The translations under genes were made by a program, and so were the position numbers. DNA of 48,692 bases from Planktothrix tepida PCC 9214 (lineage in GTDB: Bacteria > Cyanobacteriota > Cyanobacteriia > Cyanobacteriales > Microcoleaceae), in assembly GCF_900009145.1 (NCBI RefSeq), contig NZ_LN889802.1, positions 610,908 through 659,599 of the forward strand. The letters are read 5' to 3'. This document shows, piece after piece, positions 35,149 through 42,898 of this stretch. The notes beneath the pieces were generated by a model. It had not been told where the DNA came from and ran no database searches. It saw nothing but the letters and a program-made list of their open reading frames with translations. Position 1 is the first letter of the stretch, and the number at the start of each line of letters is the position of its first letter.

Positions 35149-35832
35149 TTATTCTTCTAAATTCCATAGCGTTATACCAGGAGTTACTGCAAAGACTTTC
35201 ATCTGAACTTTTCTCTCGCCTATTTCATTACAAGGCATTTGATTAGCATTGATAAAATCAAATCCTCTTAAGCTATTAACACAAAAAGATAAATTAGGCA
35301 AATTTGAATTCCAAAATTTAGTTCCGCTTTGTCCGTACATATAAACATCACCTGTATAGCGTCTTCCTAGATCAACCTCTTCACATCTACTCGGATAAAT
35401 AGTCAACCATCCTTTTGTTCGCAGTTCTGTTCCATTATTTCCATCCCAGTAACCGACTGCAAGATTAATTGTTTCGCCACGAGTTTGATTACAAAAACGA
35501 ACAATTGTTGTTTGACGTAATTGGTTGAGTTGTGTTTGTAACCCATCTCTTTCTCGCTGAAGATTTTGAATCTTCAGGTTAAGTGAAATAATATGTAAAC
35601 CCAACTTCAAACCAACGAAGAAGACTAAACTAGAAGCCATTCCTAAAAAAACAGCTAAAAATTGACTAAAATTACTTCGCTTCTTTTTAGCATCGGAGAT
35701 TATTGGTTTTTTTACAGATTTTGAACTTTTTTCTAAAGCAACTAAATTTTTACCTCCACAAATATCACATTCTAAAGGTAATACATCGGATTTAAATTCA
35801 TGAGTGCAAGTCTTACATTTATACAGTCCCAT
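35149..35832 (-). CDS. Zinc-ribbon membrane protein with DUF1036-like domain
   Basis: A 227-residue protein. The N-terminus has a four-Cys zinc ribbon (YKCKTCTHEF, then LECDICGGKN), then a basic linker and one transmembrane helix at about 56-80 (FLAVFLGMASSLVFFVGLKLG). A short coiled coil follows (LKIQNLQRERDGLQTQLNQLR). The C-terminal domain begins RFCNQTRGETINLAVGYWDG, which resembles DUF1036 domains (FCN-T---I--A--Y), and has four Cys likely to form disulfides outside the membrane. It is last in an operon after the kinase (13-bp gap) and may be a membrane target or sensor. Confidence 0.7.
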   Translation of the reverse strand: MGLYKCKTCTHEFKSDVLPLECDICGGKNLVALEKSSKSVKKPIISDAKKKRSNFSQFLAVFLGMASSLVFFVGLKLGLHIISLNLKIQNLQRERDGLQTQLNQLRQTTIVRFCNQTRGETINLAVGYWDGNNGTELRTKGWLTIYPSRCEEVDLGRRYTGDVYMYGQSGTKFWNSNLPNLSFCVNSLRGFDFINANQMPCNEIGERKVQMKVFAVTPGITLWNLEE

Positions 35833-35845
35833 AATAATTTAGATA

Positions 35846-36922
35846 TTAAGATTTTCTCATGTTTTTATTAACTCGTGAACCACTCCTTGCTGTTTTATCA
35901 CTAGATAAAGTTGACTTATCTATATTTTCTGTTGGCAACGTATCATAATGATAAAGATGTCGTAAAATCTTATGAACTTCTACAATAGATAGGCGATTTT
36001 CTGGCTTTAAAACTAACATTTTTTCAATTAATAGTTTAATTTTATGATGTGTGGGATTAGAATAGCTTTTACTTGGGGTACTCCGGGTCAAACCTTTGCT
36101 AATATTGATACGGCTTTGTGGAGGCATTTCAAGGTTTAAACACTCAGGAAGTGTTAATTCTTGACCACTAGAAACTGTTTGATAAGCGTATTGATAACGC
36201 TTGGGAAAAGTCGGGAGTGAACCTGTCCAGTATTGACAAAAGATTAAACCCAGGGAAAAAATATCGGATTTTTGATTGGGTGCTGGGGTTTTACCTTCTG
36301 TATTAATATATTCAGCAAACTCTGGTGAATAGTAGACTTGATCTCCGACCAAAAATTCGGGTGTTGTGGGTTCTCCTTCTAATATACTATTATCAAAATC
36401 AATAATCTTAGCGATTAAACGATTTTCCCATTCTTGAATCAGAATATTATCAGGTTTGAGATCTAGGTGAATAATTCTACTCCCATGAAGAATCTTTAAA
36501 GCTCCTGCTGCTGTTAACATCACAAACAGCCGTTTTTTCATTTCTAACTCATGGACTTTATTAGATAAGGAGCTAGTATCAACTTTTTGAGAAACTTTAA
36601 AATAATGACTTCCATGGTCATCACCATGTTGAAAGAAGTCTATTGTCCTGACAACTAACCCCCCATCACCACAAGCAGAAAGAGCTTTCATAATAGCTAA
36701 CTGTTTTTTTTCAAAAACTTCACATTGATCTCGTCTTTTTTGTTTCCCTTTCTCACTTCCTGGTGCAGAGTTACCTGGATAAACAGGACTTAAGAATTTT
36801 TTAATAAAAACCTCCTCTGCTCCCGCTTTTGCAAATCCCCATTGACACTGACCGCCATTAGTGCTGTCAAAATCACGACTGACGGTATATTTACCAATAA
36901 CATCGCCTGTTTTGTAAGACAT
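35846..36922 (-). CDS. Atypical Ser/Thr protein kinase (phosphorylation-triad type)
   Basis: A 358-residue soluble kinase. The N-lobe has an unusual GGQCQWGFAKAG glycine loop and VFIKKFLSPVYP with the ATP-binding Lys, like kinases of TerY-P 'phosphorylation triads' (vWA protein, PP2C phosphatase, kinase). The catalytic loop reads HLDLKPDNIL instead of HRD, and the metal-binding motif is DFDNS instead of DFG. The key Asp, Lys and Asn remain, so activity is plausible. The activation segment has YYSPEFAEY. The C-terminal tail (about 325-358) is polar. It starts 3 bp after the PP2C stop codon, showing a tight operon. Confidence 0.82.
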   Translation of the reverse strand: MSYKTGDVIGKYTVSRDFDSTNGGQCQWGFAKAGAEEVFIKKFLSPVYPGNSAPGSEKGKQKRRDQCEVFEKKQLAIMKALSACGDGGLVVRTIDFFQHGDDHGSHYFKVSQKVDTSSLSNKVHELEMKKRLFVMLTAAGALKILHGSRIIHLDLKPDNILIQEWENRLIAKIIDFDNSILEGEPTTPEFLVGDQVYYSPEFAEYINTEGKTPAPNQKSDIFSLGLIFCQYWTGSLPTFPKRYQYAYQTVSSGQELTLPECLNLEMPPQSRINISKGLTRSTPSKSYSNPTHHKIKLLIEKMLVLKPENRLSIVEVHKILRHLYHYDTLPTENIDKSTLSSDKTARSGSRVNKNMRKS

Positions 36923-36925
36923 AAT

Positions 36926-38040
36926 TTAGTTTTCTTCTTCTGAAATTTGTGTTAAATTGTCAATTTTACGGATTAATTCTTGCATTTTCCTCTTTTTTTC
37001 ATAGTTGTTTGTAACCGTTTCGTCACTTAACTTACTTTGATAATATTGACTTGCTTCATTGCAATAATACCTCGCTTTAACTAAGTTATTAGATAGGTAG
37101 TTAATCCATCCTATAAAATAGTGTAAATTTGCTATAAGATCACGATCACTTATATTCAAATGTTCTTCTAGCAGTTGTCCTAAATCTTCAAACCGAGAAT
37201 CTTCTTTAACCTGAGAATCAATATTTTCATCTGCAAACACTGTTTCTAAATCGTGAATAGCATCCTTAATATTATTATTTTTTAAGTTTACTTCAGCTAA
37301 TTCTAAGTTATTGGGGATTTTGTTTTCTTCATCACTATGTGGGATTATTTCTACTACAGGATCTACGGTAGGTTCATTATTTTCACATGAGACAGAAATA
37401 ATTTCTGGACTTGGAACAGAATCTGTATTTATTTCTACAATAGTTTGAACAATTTGCTGTTTTTCTTCCTGTTCTAAATAGAATTCATAATTTTCTCTAT
37501 ATTCCTGCCATAACGTTTGTAATTCCCCCAAATTTTTATTTTTGAAATAAAATTTTTCTGTTAAATAATCAAATCTTTCTTGATAGGATTGTTTTAAATC
37601 ATCAAAACTATTATATCCTATTGAGCAAAGAATAAGAGATACATCATCTTGCTTAATATCTTGATACCGTTTATTTAACGAATCTTCCCATTGTTTCATA
37701 TCCTCAGATTGACTCAATGTATTTAACAATAACTTTTCAAACTCCCAAGGCGCAGGTAAATATTGAAAGCATCCGTCAGTACAAGCAAGAATACATCCAC
37801 GTTGATCCAATTCTTGTAATTTAAAATGAATCTGCCAATTTTCCTTCATGTCTGCACTTAAATATTGCGACATAGGTGGATCTTCTCGAATCATTTCAAA
37901 CGCATCTTTTTTTACTTCTAAATCATCTTGAGTAAGTTGCTGTAAGCCTTTTTCTGGGCTGAGTAAGTATAACCGTGAATCTCCAATCCAAGCCAAACTA
38001 ACTTCATACTTAGCTTCTAGTTTGGGATAGAAGTTGAGGA
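36926..38040 (-). pseudogene. PP2C-type phosphatase lacking its N-terminal third
   Basis: The readable frame continues upstream of the only usable start (TTG at 37996): FLNFYPKLEAKYEVSLAWIGDSRLYLL. The protein starts within the PP2C fold. GDSR, ILACTDGCFQYL and the closing DDVSLILC are present, but the first metal-binding region (normally about 80-100 residues before GDSR, with R--NED and DG-GG) is absent. After the PP2C part comes a 200-residue acidic linker with helical TPR-like repeats (LHYFIGWINYLSNNLVKARYY). Near 38020-38040 the homology runs into an unrelated plus-strand frame, so the gene was cut there by a rearrangement. The remaining protein should be inactive as phosphatase. Confidence 0.75.
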
Positions 38041-38044
38041 AGGT

Positions 38045-38227
38045 GTGAAAACTGACCTCTGTGTGACGTTATATCGATATGTGAAAAGTTTGGTAGATAA
38101 GTTAGATGCTCGGATAGAAAGTTGGCGAGAAGTGACTGAATGGTTAGAAGAAGCCGGATATAAACGACAGACACCCCCTGAGATTCCCGTTGATAGTTTG
38201 CTGACTGAAAAAAGTGTTGTTAATGTT
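38045..38227 (+). pseudogene. 5' part of a plus-strand ORF split by the intron
   Basis: An open frame with GTG at 38045 (VKTDLCVTLYRYVKSLVDKL, then RIESWREVTEWLEEAGY, then PPEIPVDSLLTEKSVVNV). The amino-acid mix and codon use look like a real protein, but I do not recognise the family. Upstream it meets a stop at 38018-38020 within the PP2C remnant, so its own N-terminus may be lost. At 38227 the codon ends exactly at the predicted 3' end of the antisense group II intron. The frame resumes at 40661. Confidence 0.6.
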
Positions 38228-38229
38228 GT

Positions 38230-38303
38230 TAGAGTCGATAGAAGCGTTACCACTTCTACCTCTCCTTCAGAACCGTGCGTGAGACTTTCACCTCACACGG
38301 CTC
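38230..38303 (-). ncRNA. Group II intron domains V and VI
   Basis: Domain V (38303-38270 on the minus strand) is 34 nt: gagccgtgtgaggt, gaaa tetraloop, agtctcacgcacggttc region, with the catalytic AGC-type triad and bulge. Domain VI follows: ggtagaag and cttctatc form an 8-bp stem, then a bulged ga before ctctaac supplies the branch-point A. These are the catalytic heart of the ribozyme. Confidence 0.88.
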
Positions 38304-38335
38304 CTTGATAATTCCACCTTTGTTATAGGTACGAT

Positions 38336-40054
38336 TCAAAACGGGTTATTGTCATGATTCTTGATTAAAGAACCGTCGTGGGCCGTTTTTATGTCGTGAC
38401 AATGTTTGTGTAGAAGTTGCAGATTATCATAAGTGTCTTTTCCACCTAATGATGTTGGTTTAATATGATCAACCTCTACAATGTCTGTACTTGTGAAATA
38501 CAGACCACAGTCAGGACAAATACCCTTTTGTTTCTTGATTAATTTAGAAACCCTGTTAGGAGTTTCAGGATATTTGCCTCTTCGTTTACTCCAATAAGTC
38601 CAGTTGCCATCATACGGACTAGCTTCGCTTTTAACCTTTGTATGCCTTACGATTGGCGTACTAGCGTGAGTGATTAATTCTAATCCGTCTTCTGTACTGA
38701 AACACCAATTTTTGTTGCCTACTGTTCTCCAGTATTTATCTTTATTGATGTCCCCTTTTCCCCTTGTTCTTGCCCATGTTCTCAACTTATCATAAGTTAG
38801 ATGATCAACTTGTGAGAAAGTTTTTTTACTAGCAACTGTTGAGTAATAGTTTGACCACCCTTTAATTATTGGGTTTAGCTTACTAATTAAAGTAGCTTGT
38901 GGGGCGGTCGTATAAGTATCTATTACTTCAGCTATCTTGATAAGATGAGTTTTGATTTTGGTTTTTGAGGGTGTGATTATTGTTTTAAAACCTAGTGGAA
39001 TTCCTTTGGAATTATTGGCACTTCTGTAGTTACCTACTTCGTGTTGTTGTATATGGAATCCTAAAAAATTAAACCCAACTTTTCCGTCAATTTCATTGAG
39101 GGTGTGGGTTATTTTTGTTTTACTGGGTTTTAATTCCAATCCCATATCACTCAACCATTCAGCGATTATCTCTTGACACTTTCTGACAACGTTTACATCC
39201 TCATGGATTATCACAAAGTCATCAGCGTAACGGATTAAACTAAGGGCATTACGGTTATTTTGTTTATGTCCTTTTAGAGTTTCTGCATATTGCTTGACTC
39301 TTTCTTCCATACCATGTAAGGCAATATTTGCAAGTAGAGGTGAAATCACCCCCCCTTGTGGTGTTCCCTCATGGGCAGGAAAAAGTTGTTTTCCGACGCA
39401 GTACCCTGCTTTGAGCCACACTTGAATTTGACGGCTTAAAGTGGGGTATGTATGTATTTTGGAGATTAACACTTGATGGTCTATACGATCAAAGCATTTT
39501 GAGATATCAGCATCAAGCACATATTTGGCTTTTTGATGGATGCTATTGAATATTGCTTCGATTGCATCGTGGCAGGAACGTCCTGGTCTGAAACCGTAAC
39601 TGTTAGGTTCAAATTTAGCCTCCCATTCGGGTTCTAATGCTAGTTTGACTAACGCTTGTAATGCACGGTCGTCTATTGTGGGTATTCCCAATGGACGAGT
39701 TTCAGTTGTTCCCGGTTTGGGTATCATTACTCTACGAGTAGGTTTAACCTTACCTGTTAACTTTAATCGTCCTACAAGGCTCATCCGTTGTTTTGGGGTC
39801 AGAGATTTAACTCCGTCCACTCCTGCGGTATTTTTGCCTTGATTGTCCTGTGTTACCCGACGTACAGCGATACATTTTGCTGACCAAGACCTAATCAGGG
39901 TCTTCTGAAGTTTGCGAACTGCTTTAACATCGCCTCGTTCACTCGCTCGAAATATGCGCTTTTGCAACTTGAAAGTCACCCGTTCTAGCTTGCGCCAGTT
40001 GATGTCTTTCCACTCCACCGTCTGATTTTTGTTCAGCGTTTTAGATTTATTCAT
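38336..40054 (-). CDS. ltrA: Group II intron reverse transcriptase/maturase with HNH endonuclease
   Basis: A 572-residue multifunctional protein encoded in intron domain IV. It helps splice the intron, nicks target DNA and copies the RNA. RT blocks are in order: TAGVDG, RRVMIPKPGTTETRPLGIPTIDDRALQ, FEPNSYGFRPGRSCHDAI, DADISKCFDRIDH, TPQGGVISPLLANI, and the catalytic RYADDFVI (about 265). The maturase X domain includes NYYSTVASKKTFSQVDH. The C-terminal HNH nuclease has CPDCG, EVDHIKPTSLGG and LQLLHKHCHDIKT. The full length and intact catalytic residues suggest activity. Subtype as a chloroplast-like class with HNH is inferred. Confidence 0.95.
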   Translation of the reverse strand: MNKSKTLNKNQTVEWKDINWRKLERVTFKLQKRIFRASERGDVKAVRKLQKTLIRSWSAKCIAVRRVTQDNQGKNTAGVDGVKSLTPKQRMSLVGRLKLTGKVKPTRRVMIPKPGTTETRPLGIPTIDDRALQALVKLALEPEWEAKFEPNSYGFRPGRSCHDAIEAIFNSIHQKAKYVLDADISKCFDRIDHQVLISKIHTYPTLSRQIQVWLKAGYCVGKQLFPAHEGTPQGGVISPLLANIALHGMEERVKQYAETLKGHKQNNRNALSLIRYADDFVIIHEDVNVVRKCQEIIAEWLSDMGLELKPSKTKITHTLNEIDGKVGFNFLGFHIQQHEVGNYRSANNSKGIPLGFKTIITPSKTKIKTHLIKIAEVIDTYTTAPQATLISKLNPIIKGWSNYYSTVASKKTFSQVDHLTYDKLRTWARTRGKGDINKDKYWRTVGNKNWCFSTEDGLELITHASTPIVRHTKVKSEASPYDGNWTYWSKRRGKYPETPNRVSKLIKKQKGICPDCGLYFTSTDIVEVDHIKPTSLGGKDTYDNLQLLHKHCHDIKTAHDGSLIKNHDNNPF

Positions 40055-40660
40055 TGCTACTTGTTCTATTTCTTTGGAATTACCGAGTATCTGTCAGCAT
40101 ATCCCTTGCATTACCAAGGGCATTCGCTTTTGATACCATCCCTCCCCTAATTACCATTCGTTAGCTACTTACTGGTTATCGACCTTTTACCAGAGATAAT
40201 TAGGGGTTACTTCGTTCCGATTACACATTTGTTTGAAGTCTTTAGCGTGATGCTATCCACCGGGTTTATTGGGCGGTGCTTATAAGTCGGATTATCAACC
40301 GCTTATGCCCTAATCCTTGCCTTTTGGCTTGGTGTTTATCAAGTTTTATCTTGAATTTAGCCCATTACACCATTTCTGTTAACGATGGTTCAAACGCATC
40401 TTTGCTTTCGCTACACATGGACTTCTTGCTCGATAGTTACCAGATTTGGCTACCAGTAGTTCTACCTTTTAACCCCGCTTTAGTCTGTTAGTTGCTACTT
40501 AAGCAGACTAGGGGTTATGCTTTCACCTCAGCACTTGAGGGATGGGACTTAATTCACAGAATTTCACCCATAAATGTAATTAGTTATCTCTAACTACCTA
40601 GGTAGCTAGGCTAACCGTCCCATAAGCTTTTTGGCTTATTTTAGGTTAAACGAATCGCAC

Positions 40661-40798
40661 AATAATATTCATATTGAAAATCATCAGTTAGTTGTTGTTT
40701 TTAGTTTAAAAATCCCTACAACATCCGCTACTTCAGAATCAAAAAAATATTCAGAGATGACAGAAAATTCAATAATTGCTGAGAATTTAGTTAATTAA
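40661..40798 (+). pseudogene. 3' part of the plus-strand ORF split by the intron
   Basis: 45 codons and a stop (taa at 40796-40798) continue the frame that ends at 38227: NNIHIENHQLVVVFSL, then KIPTTSATSESKKYSEMTEN, ending AENLVN. No base is lost or added when the intron is removed. The joined protein would have about 106 residues. No family is recognised. The 159 bp from here to dnaG hold nothing I can name. Confidence 0.6.
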
Positions 40799-40957
40799 CC
40801 GTTGAATATAAAACGACAATAGCAAGTTCAAGTTCTTGAATTTATGCCCATTGTAAATAAGGATACCTTTAAAAAAATCAGACAATAAGAAGATTAAAGG
40901 GATCATCAGGGGTATTTTATGGCAAAATAAAGATTTACAATTTTAATCTCATCTCCA

Positions 40958-42898
40958 ATGCTGACTCCCCGAATTCATCCCGATACCATAGAGGACGTTA
41001 AAGAACGCGCTGATATTTATGATGTTGTTTCCGAGAAAGTGGTCTTGAAACGACGGGGAAAAGATTTTGTGGGGTTGTGTCCCTTTCATGAAGAAAAAAC
41101 CCCTAGTTTTACCGTTAGTCCGACGAAACAAATGTTTTATTGTTTTGGATGTGGGGCGGCGGGAAATAGCCTGAAATTTATCATGGATTTGGAGAAACGT
41201 TCCTTTAGTGAGGTCGTTTTAGAGTTAGCAAAACGCTATCAAATTCCGGTAAAAACCTTAGAGCCCGAAAAACGGCAGGAATTACAAAGACAGATTTCTT
41301 TACGAGAACAATTATATGAAATTTTAGCGATCGCCACAAGTTTTTATCAACACGCTTTAAGACAGCCGGAAGGATTACAAGCCTTAGATTATTTAAAATT
41401 GAAACGTCAGATTAAAGAAGATACAATTCAATATTTTCAGTTAGGATACGCCCCCCAAGGATGGGAAACCCTCTATGATTATCTTGTGGAACAGAAGCAT
41501 TTTCCGGCGGAATTAGTAGAACAGGCGGGGTTAATTGTGCCTCGAAAAACGGGTAATGGCTATTATGATCGGTTTAGAGATCGGTTAATGATTCCCATTC
41601 AGGATAGTCAAGGGCGAGTGATTGGATTTGGAGGTCGGAGTTTAGGGGATGAACTTCCGAAATATCTCAATTCTCCCGAAACAGAATTATTTGATAAAGG
41701 TAAAACGTTATTTGCCTTAGATAAAGCCAAAAATGCGATTAGTAAACAGGATTTAGCGATTGTTGTAGAGGGGTATTTTGATGCGATCGCTTTACATAGG
41801 GCGGGAATTGAAAATGTTGTAGCATCTTTAGGAACTGCTTTAAGTTTAAATCAAGTTCGGCAGTTAGTTCGCTATACAGAATCTAAACAAATTATTCTGA
41901 ATTTTGATGCGGATGCTGCGGGAAATAAAGCCGCCGAACGCGCCATCGGAGAAATTGAAGATTTGGCTTATCAAGGATATATTAATTTACGGATTTTAAA
42001 TATTCCCTCCGGGAAAGATCCTGATGAATTTTTAATCTATAATTCTGCCGAAGATTATCAAAAATTAGTCTTGAATTCTCCCTCATGGATTGAGTGGCAA
42101 ATTCAACGGCTTTTAATCGGAAAAAGCTTGGAAACCGTTGCCCAGTCGCAACAAGTTTCAAAAGTGATGGTAGAATTATTAAGAAAAATTGACAACGGCA
42201 TACAAAGAACTCATTATATTCAATACTGTGCTGAACTTCTCAGCCAAGGACAATCTCGATTAGTTCCTTTGTTCGCTAAAAATTTACAAACTCAAGTTAA
42301 TAAACCTTATTCAGATCATGAAAAACAAAAGGTATCTTCTGATTTACTAACTCTTAATTCTGAACGGAGTTTATTAGAAGAAGCGGAAGTGAAACTGCTG
42401 AGAATTTATTTACATTGTCCTGAATACCGTCTGACCATTCAGGATGCCTTAGAAGCGAGAGATTTACAGTTTAGTTTAGCCCATCATCGGTTTCTCTGGC
42501 GAGAAATTACTAAAATTGAAGAAATAGCTGAAAAGGATTTAGATTCCGTTGATTTGATTCTGGAATTACAACAAGTTTGTTTACAGGAAAATCAACCTAC
42601 AAAGCAATTTTATCATTTATTTTATTTGGATGAACATACAGAAATTGATATCCGTCGCGCTCGTTTAGTAATTCGCAGTTCCGTGGCTTCTATTGAAACG
42701 GTTATTTGTCAAAAAAGACGAGATATGGCATTAAAATTATGGCAAGAAACAGATGTTGGAAAAGAGCAAAATTTAGCTCAAAAATATTATCAACAAATTG
42801 ATGCTGAAACGAAATGGATGTGGGAATTAAAACGAATTCGTGATACCCAATTTGATGATTTAATTTCTGTTCCTTTAGGGGGAATAAATTTTAATTAA
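40958..42898 (+). CDS. dnaG: DNA primase
   Basis: A 646-residue primase that makes RNA primers at replication forks. The N-terminal CHC2 zinc finger is complete (C41, H44, C62, C65 in LCPFHEEKTPSF and FYCFGCGAAGN). The catalytic core has the RNAP basic motif (FRDRLMIPIQDSQGRVIGFGGR) and the Toprim domain (VVEGYFDAIALHRAG; LNFDADAAGNKAA). The C-terminal 200 residues form the helicase-binding domain and are variable in the family. The gene stands alone on this strand, downstream of the intron-bearing island, with no sigma-factor gene beside it. Confidence 0.96.
   Translation: MLTPRIHPDTIEDVKERADIYDVVSEKVVLKRRGKDFVGLCPFHEEKTPSFTVSPTKQMFYCFGCGAAGNSLKFIMDLEKRSFSEVVLELAKRYQIPVKTLEPEKRQELQRQISLREQLYEILAIATSFYQHALRQPEGLQALDYLKLKRQIKEDTIQYFQLGYAPQGWETLYDYLVEQKHFPAELVEQAGLIVPRKTGNGYYDRFRDRLMIPIQDSQGRVIGFGGRSLGDELPKYLNSPETELFDKGKTLFALDKAKNAISKQDLAIVVEGYFDAIALHRAGIENVVASLGTALSLNQVRQLVRYTESKQIILNFDADAAGNKAAERAIGEIEDLAYQGYINLRILNIPSGKDPDEFLIYNSAEDYQKLVLNSPSWIEWQIQRLLIGKSLETVAQSQQVSKVMVELLRKIDNGIQRTHYIQYCAELLSQGQSRLVPLFAKNLQTQVNKPYSDHEKQKVSSDLLTLNSERSLLEEAEVKLLRIYLHCPEYRLTIQDALEARDLQFSLAHHRFLWREITKIEEIAEKDLDSVDLILELQQVCLQENQPTKQFYHLFYLDEHTEIDIRRARLVIRSSVASIETVICQKRRDMALKLWQETDVGKEQNLAQKYYQQIDAETKWMWELKRIRDTQFDDLISVPLGGINFN

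Follow-up and report, generated by a model that had tools for sequence, protein, structure and literature searches.

Planktothrix tepida PCC 9214 carries a complete group II intron inserted antisense in the remnant of a protein-coding gene, within the stretch of 48,692 nt analysed here (the window). Very probably it is a mobile, CL/IIB-like element, from a family with many Planktothrix copies, that was reverse-spliced in at a site chosen by EBS1 and EBS3 pairing, leaving a clean insertion. Intron RNA in complex with its RT/maturase/HNH protein would have invaded the strand opposite to the coding strand of the host by reverse splicing, with EBS1-IBS1 and EBS3-IBS3 pairing selecting the target, and would then have been copied into DNA. 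The host message would carry the complement of the intron and could not splice it, because the RNA would have entered the non-coding strand; the earlier note had likewise judged the orientation wrong for splicing. We infer from the sequence that reverse splicing and reverse transcription were the route and that the element retains activity. The features of the region are listed below, with L041 lying in the related genome G002 and L043 in the related genome G009.

36926 to 38008, minus strand: 3' part of a PP2C gene, 5' part missing (blast; 491-aa uninterrupted homologue, L043:7307-8782)
38009 to 38039, minus strand: 31-nt leftover of a vWA-domain gene, with a rearrangement junction on either side (three-way comparison with L043)
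38040 to 38227, plus strand: left part of the host gene remnant, from within codon 61, with an open frame from GTG 38045, codon 63 (alignment to L041 and L043)
38228 to 40660, minus strand: complete group II intron, 2433 nt, GUGCG...CUCUAAC (same-genome copy 100% identical over the whole length; uninterrupted relative G002)
38231 to 38265, minus strand: domain VI, in which A 38235, eighth base from the 3' end, is the unpaired branch point (Rfam alignment and RNA fold)
38270 to 38303, minus strand: domain V, with AGC near the 5' end and a GAAA loop (Rfam alignment)
38336 to 40054, minus strand: intron-encoded protein of 572 aa with RVT_N, RVT_1 (YADD), maturase and HNH endonuclease domains (Pfam)
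40255, minus strand: EBS3, T, pairing with IBS3, minus-strand A at 38227 (paired in all 29 copies)
40291 to 40296, minus strand: EBS1, GATAAT, pairing 6/6 (one G-U) with IBS1, ATTATT, at 40666-40661 (covariation over 26 copies)
40661 to 40672, minus strand: 5' exon with IBS1 (40661-40666) and IBS2 (about 40667-40672), the IBS2 match weak with a longest run of 3
40661 to 40798, plus strand: right part of the host gene remnant, to its stop (97.1% identity to L041 10207-10344)

Intron ends, RNA domains and encoded protein

Several copies in the same genome share their first and last bases, which identifies GTGCG at 40660 and ...CTCTAAC at 38228 as the true intron ends. The earlier note had proposed a minus-strand group II intron with exactly these ends, and both the copies and the Rfam match to domains V-VI agree with it. 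One copy (L002/L058; G000:C26:1579349-1581781, G000 being the own genome), unlinked and at a site unrelated to that in the window, is identical over 2433 of 2433 nt. Further own-genome copies with 90%, 87%, 87% and about 85% identity begin and end at the same bases; L003, L004 and L005 align without a break over intron bases 1-2433, whereas the alignment of L006 falls into two pieces, 1-134 and 138-2433. The identity of the two full copies could be helped by the assembly, because the genome is a draft of 191 contigs with an N directly beside a third related copy. Another copy, L008 (G000:C57:270071-271801), is internally deleted to 1731 nt, having lost a portion of the RT coding region (query positions 787-1486); its EBS1 still pairs 6/6.

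The ends conform to the 5' GUGYG and 3' AY of bacterial mobile group II introns. The Rfam Intron_gpII model (domains V-VI) matches 38228-38305 on the minus strand with 66.2 bits (gathering threshold 40), and the predicted RNA fold of 38228-38310 has a z-score of -5.39, with an unpaired A eight bases before the intron end. Besides domain V there is thus a domain VI whose unpaired A lies at the usual distance of 7-8 nt before the 3' end. The Rfam models of group II domains I-IV gave no match to the intron at E up to 1.

The 572-aa protein is an intact RT/maturase: it scores 334.7 bits against NCBIfam group_II_RT_mat (TIGR04416; cut-off 300), and its residues 10-561 align with the solved maturase RT 6me0 (E 6.8e-108), presumably the protein of the group IIB intron T.el4h from T. 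elongatus. Relatives abound among cyanobacteria: with one genome per species (best 80 kept, own genome possibly omitted), 466 of the 475 pattern matches encode one. The intron DNA matches four of 72,556 plasmid records, two of them from Planktothrix agardhii. A search of eight window proteins against anti-phage families at E 0.01 gave matches only for two kinases and the intron protein, in kinase and RT families, and none for the vWA protein, both PP2C pieces, the host gene and the DUF1036 protein.

The empty site and the host gene remnant

The left flank, 38045-38227, contributes 61 codons and the right flank, 40661-40798, another 45 and the stop; they share one frame, giving 106 codons when joined. 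Window positions 38023-38227 correspond to L041 10004-10206 and positions 40661-40798 to L041 10207-10344, and 10206 and 10207 are adjacent in G002. Compared with this empty site, the insertion shows no target duplication. It neither gained nor lost a base, just as the earlier note had stated for an in-frame join of 38227 to 40661 over about 106 codons; the relative places the junction exactly there. The host protein is uninterrupted in G002, with 98% identity over 94 aa, and the gene is also uninterrupted in G003 and G009 (protein identity 88%). The single frame across the flanks is not due to chance, since G002 carries the same protein uninterrupted on contiguous DNA.

The earlier note had concluded that the intron inactivates the host gene. 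This is not supported as stated, because the 5' third of the gene is also gone. In G002 and G009 the gene encodes 168 aa and the window frame corresponds to codons 63-168; what is GTG 38045 here codes in the relatives for a valine inside the protein. A separate rearrangement at 38008-38040 cost the host gene roughly its initial 60 codons; the vWA gene was lost almost entirely in the same rearrangement, as was the beginning of the PP2C gene. The order in G009 is a DUF1036-like gene, a kinase, PP2C (491 aa), vWA (228 aa), the host gene and dnaG, each with an uninterrupted frame (names from Pfam on window and G002 proteins); relative to it the window lacks two segments, L043 8390-9467, of about 1.08 kb, and L043 9499-10084, of about 0.59 kb. 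By these alignments the intron is one of two lesions in the host gene, and perhaps the later one.

The reverse order, in which the intron struck and inactivated an intact gene whose 5' end was then lost by decay, is a serious possibility, though not the favoured one. Of the 106 codons that could be set against G002 (60 on the left and, counting the stop, 46 on the right), five have changed synonymously and one non-synonymously in the remnant; so few and mostly synonymous changes suggest that it was probably under constraint until recently. Both lesions look recent and either order fits. Nothing orders the two events, and the 5' loss, having also removed almost all of the vWA gene and the PP2C start, need not relate to the intron.

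The host protein had no Pfam match at 1e-3; a loose threshold gave weak matches below cut-off, the best to sigma-70 region 4 and others including LuxR-type HTH, and NCBIfam gave a single match far below its cut-off. The neighbouring kinase, PP2C and vWA genes (window 35149-38039; L043:5524-9608), presumably a group resembling TerY-P triads, are uninterrupted in G009, and the window has lost the vWA gene except for 31 nt together with the PP2C start. PADLOC gave only kinase-family matches for the kinase. The PP2C gene of G002 (L041:7215-8738) is apparently broken too, with two ORFs of 213 and 228 aa versus one of 491 aa in G009. In G002 the interval from the host gene to dnaG (L041:10345-11356) contains a small gene, one with a PIN domain, and 173 nt that resemble a section of dnaG at 91% (window 41213-41385); in the window, G003 and G009 the spacing is too short for these extra pieces.

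Exon-binding sequences and the choice of target

EBS1 was defined as the six bases following the conserved GCATAAGC(G/A)(G/A)TT, and its partner as the final six bases of the exon. Own-genome copies served to choose the columns for EBS1 and EBS3, by eye. The input, drawn from the matches listed for the ten genomes of the genus, was 34 loci chosen as full-length or 5'-complete copies among those fetched, with fragments and diverged copies excluded. Thirty-one of them gave 32 rows (the L050 copy is repeated in L060) and L071, L084 and L085 gave none; pairing was tested on 30 rows after dropping the L050 repeat and L078, whose site and EBS letters are the same as those of L006. EBS1 was readable in 26 of these rows, EBS2 in 26, and EBS3 with IBS3 in 29.

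EBS1 forms 136 of 156 possible pairs in the 26 copies, whereas shuffled copies averaged 67.5 and peaked at 103 (none of 20000 shuffles reached 136). Thirteen copies pair 6/6 and the lowest 3/6. Sliding the exon window by 1-6 nt reduced the count to 56-73 of 156, and when each of the 17 distinct EBS1 sequences was represented by a single copy, the score was 88 (mean 45.3). The first base of the 3' exon is paired with EBS3 in all 29 copies (shuffle mean 12.5), including all 22 copies from other genomes that were unused for column picking. The EBS2 runs total 130 in 26 copies (shuffle mean 91.6, maximum 110); the run of 3 at the window site is the minimum among these copies, shared with L080. The EBS-IBS check proposed in the earlier note for the 5' boundary thus found strong pairing at EBS1 (6/6) and EBS3 and a weak match at EBS2, backed by covariation in the family. 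Because the exon-binding sites co-vary with their neighbouring exons, the intron ends are fixed, which points to RNA-guided reverse splicing.

Subclass IIB1 is characterised by a single-base EBS3-IBS3 pairing, with EBS3 apart from EBS1. The window intron has such a separate EBS3, 36 nt from EBS1 and paired in every readable copy. From this arrangement and the similarity of its protein to 6me0 the intron appears CL/IIB-like and may belong to the CL type, subclass IIB1.

L049, in genome G008, has the same EBS set as the window copy, and its site pairs 6/6 with an EBS2 run of 6. The own genome has this site too, with the last 77 nt of the intron and an N. The window copy is probably an ectopic insertion, a recent retrotransposition to a second-choice site, rather than a homing insertion, because its EBS2 match is weak. 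EBS/IBS contacts are known for group II introns, and poorly matched sites serve as the mark of ectopic retrotransposition for the T. elongatus introns, in the available part of PMC2882425.

A shared target for the window and sister copies, considered because the match ran 15 nt into the 5' exon, was rejected: the letters differ and only the EBS-compatible bases are alike. Likewise rejected was L017, a solitary domain V-VI fragment, as a 5'-truncated insertion; it abuts an N and is most likely an assembly gap at the site that L049 occupies in G008. No clear empty site for L058 was found among the four of ten genomes (own included) that match its 5' flank. Some 50-70 bases just upstream of the sister copy (L168, L058) recur elsewhere in the own genome with 82-90% identity, so that the site may lie within a small repeat. 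L053 (G003:C22) and L054 (G009:C1), from two species, share the same 25-nt 5' exon and have different EBS1 letters that both pair 6/6, as if EBS1 had drifted or the site had been invaded twice.

Age, family and meaning of the insertion

Orientation was assigned in 29 copies (L056 and L086 omitted) from open frames, 80 codons or longer, that span the junction: 17 are sense, seven antisense (window included) and five lie in no frame. Among the seven, L006 and L078 represent one site shared by two genomes, and chance may account for four of the frames, which have 83-92 codons. A clear antisense case is L080, from P. rubescens PCC 7821; it splits a Cache-HAMP-PAS gene, the pieces of which match dCache_1 positions 3-82 (26.9 bits, under the cut-off of 45) and 92-240 (59.7 bits). 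The sense label of L058 is weak, its 96-codon sense frame not being a recognised gene. L061 (G001:C1:866446-868895) is a sense copy within an open frame of at least 998 codons, whose expression would need splicing. According to the accessible part of PMC8919778, CL-type introns occur in most intron-bearing cyanobacterial genomes, and the cyanobacterial examples have no strand bias.

Known systems offer several parallels. The TeI4/TeI3 group IIB1 introns of T. elongatus (Mohr et al. 2010, PMC2882425, as far as the text was available) belong to a different genus; like the window intron they encode an RT/maturase protein with an endonuclease domain. Both have many related copies per genome, families with differing EBS sequences, some insertions into poorly matched sites (read there as retrotransposition), and ORF-less and deleted copies. 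The closest relative of the T. elongatus introns named in that part of the paper is EcI5, an E. coli intron of the same CL/IIB1 kind, likened to the window intron by description only. Group IIC-attC introns provide a precedent for insertion opposite to the transcription of surrounding genes, but are of class IIC and attC-targeted, unlike the window intron (PMC7923331, in part). Sinorhizobium RmInt1 transposes ectopically to sites with an IBS resembling that of its home site, as is probable here (PMC5894124, in part); it has no endonuclease domain (PMC8914252, in part), whereas the window protein has an HNH domain. Among the open-licence papers listed, titles and abstract openings pointed to none about this insertion.

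An active burst of the intron family in this lineage is rather unlikely. One EBS set, present at a well-matched site (L049 in G008; the N site in the own genome), would have thrown off copies into sites with poorer EBS2 matches (window, L058), with antisense copies persisting mainly in decaying genes; gene remnants would then act as sinks for antisense intron copies. The fewer than 10 introns given for P. agardhii_A in the available part of PMC8919778 speak against a general burst in the genus.

The earlier note had called the insertion recent, and the empty site in G002, G003 and G009 together with the identical sister copy bears this out. An ancient intron inherited with the locus and precisely lost in the relatives would agree with an old family in the genus, all ten genomes of which (own included) hold some match. 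It is nevertheless very improbable: those three sites are empty, and the window copy is identical to an unlinked own copy, whereas the best full-length copy listed from another genome reaches only 90% (G008), with some short fragments at 93-95% among the matches listed. An antisense intron, moreover, could not be lost via spliced host mRNA.

Promoter-like matches in 37900-41100 number six, against 8.1 expected by shuffling. Three lie on the minus strand, all within the intron, and one of them (40382-40354) is upstream of the protein gene. The suggestion of the earlier note that the intron has its own promoter is not supported by these counts, which are at or below chance and are neither evidence for a promoter nor an exclusion of one. 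A transcribed antisense element regulating the host remnant or dnaG, which the position between the two remnant parts and upstream of dnaG (40958-42898, plus strand) might suggest, is hardly credible, as no minus-strand promoter-like site was found between 40661 and 41100, the regional counts are at chance, and the insertion is missing in G002, G003 and G009.

The preferred reading, a recent reverse-spliced insertion, makes the antisense intron an instance of ordinary behaviour for such mobile elements, with unusually clear evidence of the insertion point. An empty site, an identical sister copy and co-varying exon contacts combine in a clean natural case of a mobile intron in the strand where it is unspliceable. 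The example also illustrates that, where a junction restores the frame, a damaged gene can appear to owe its breakage to the intron alone.
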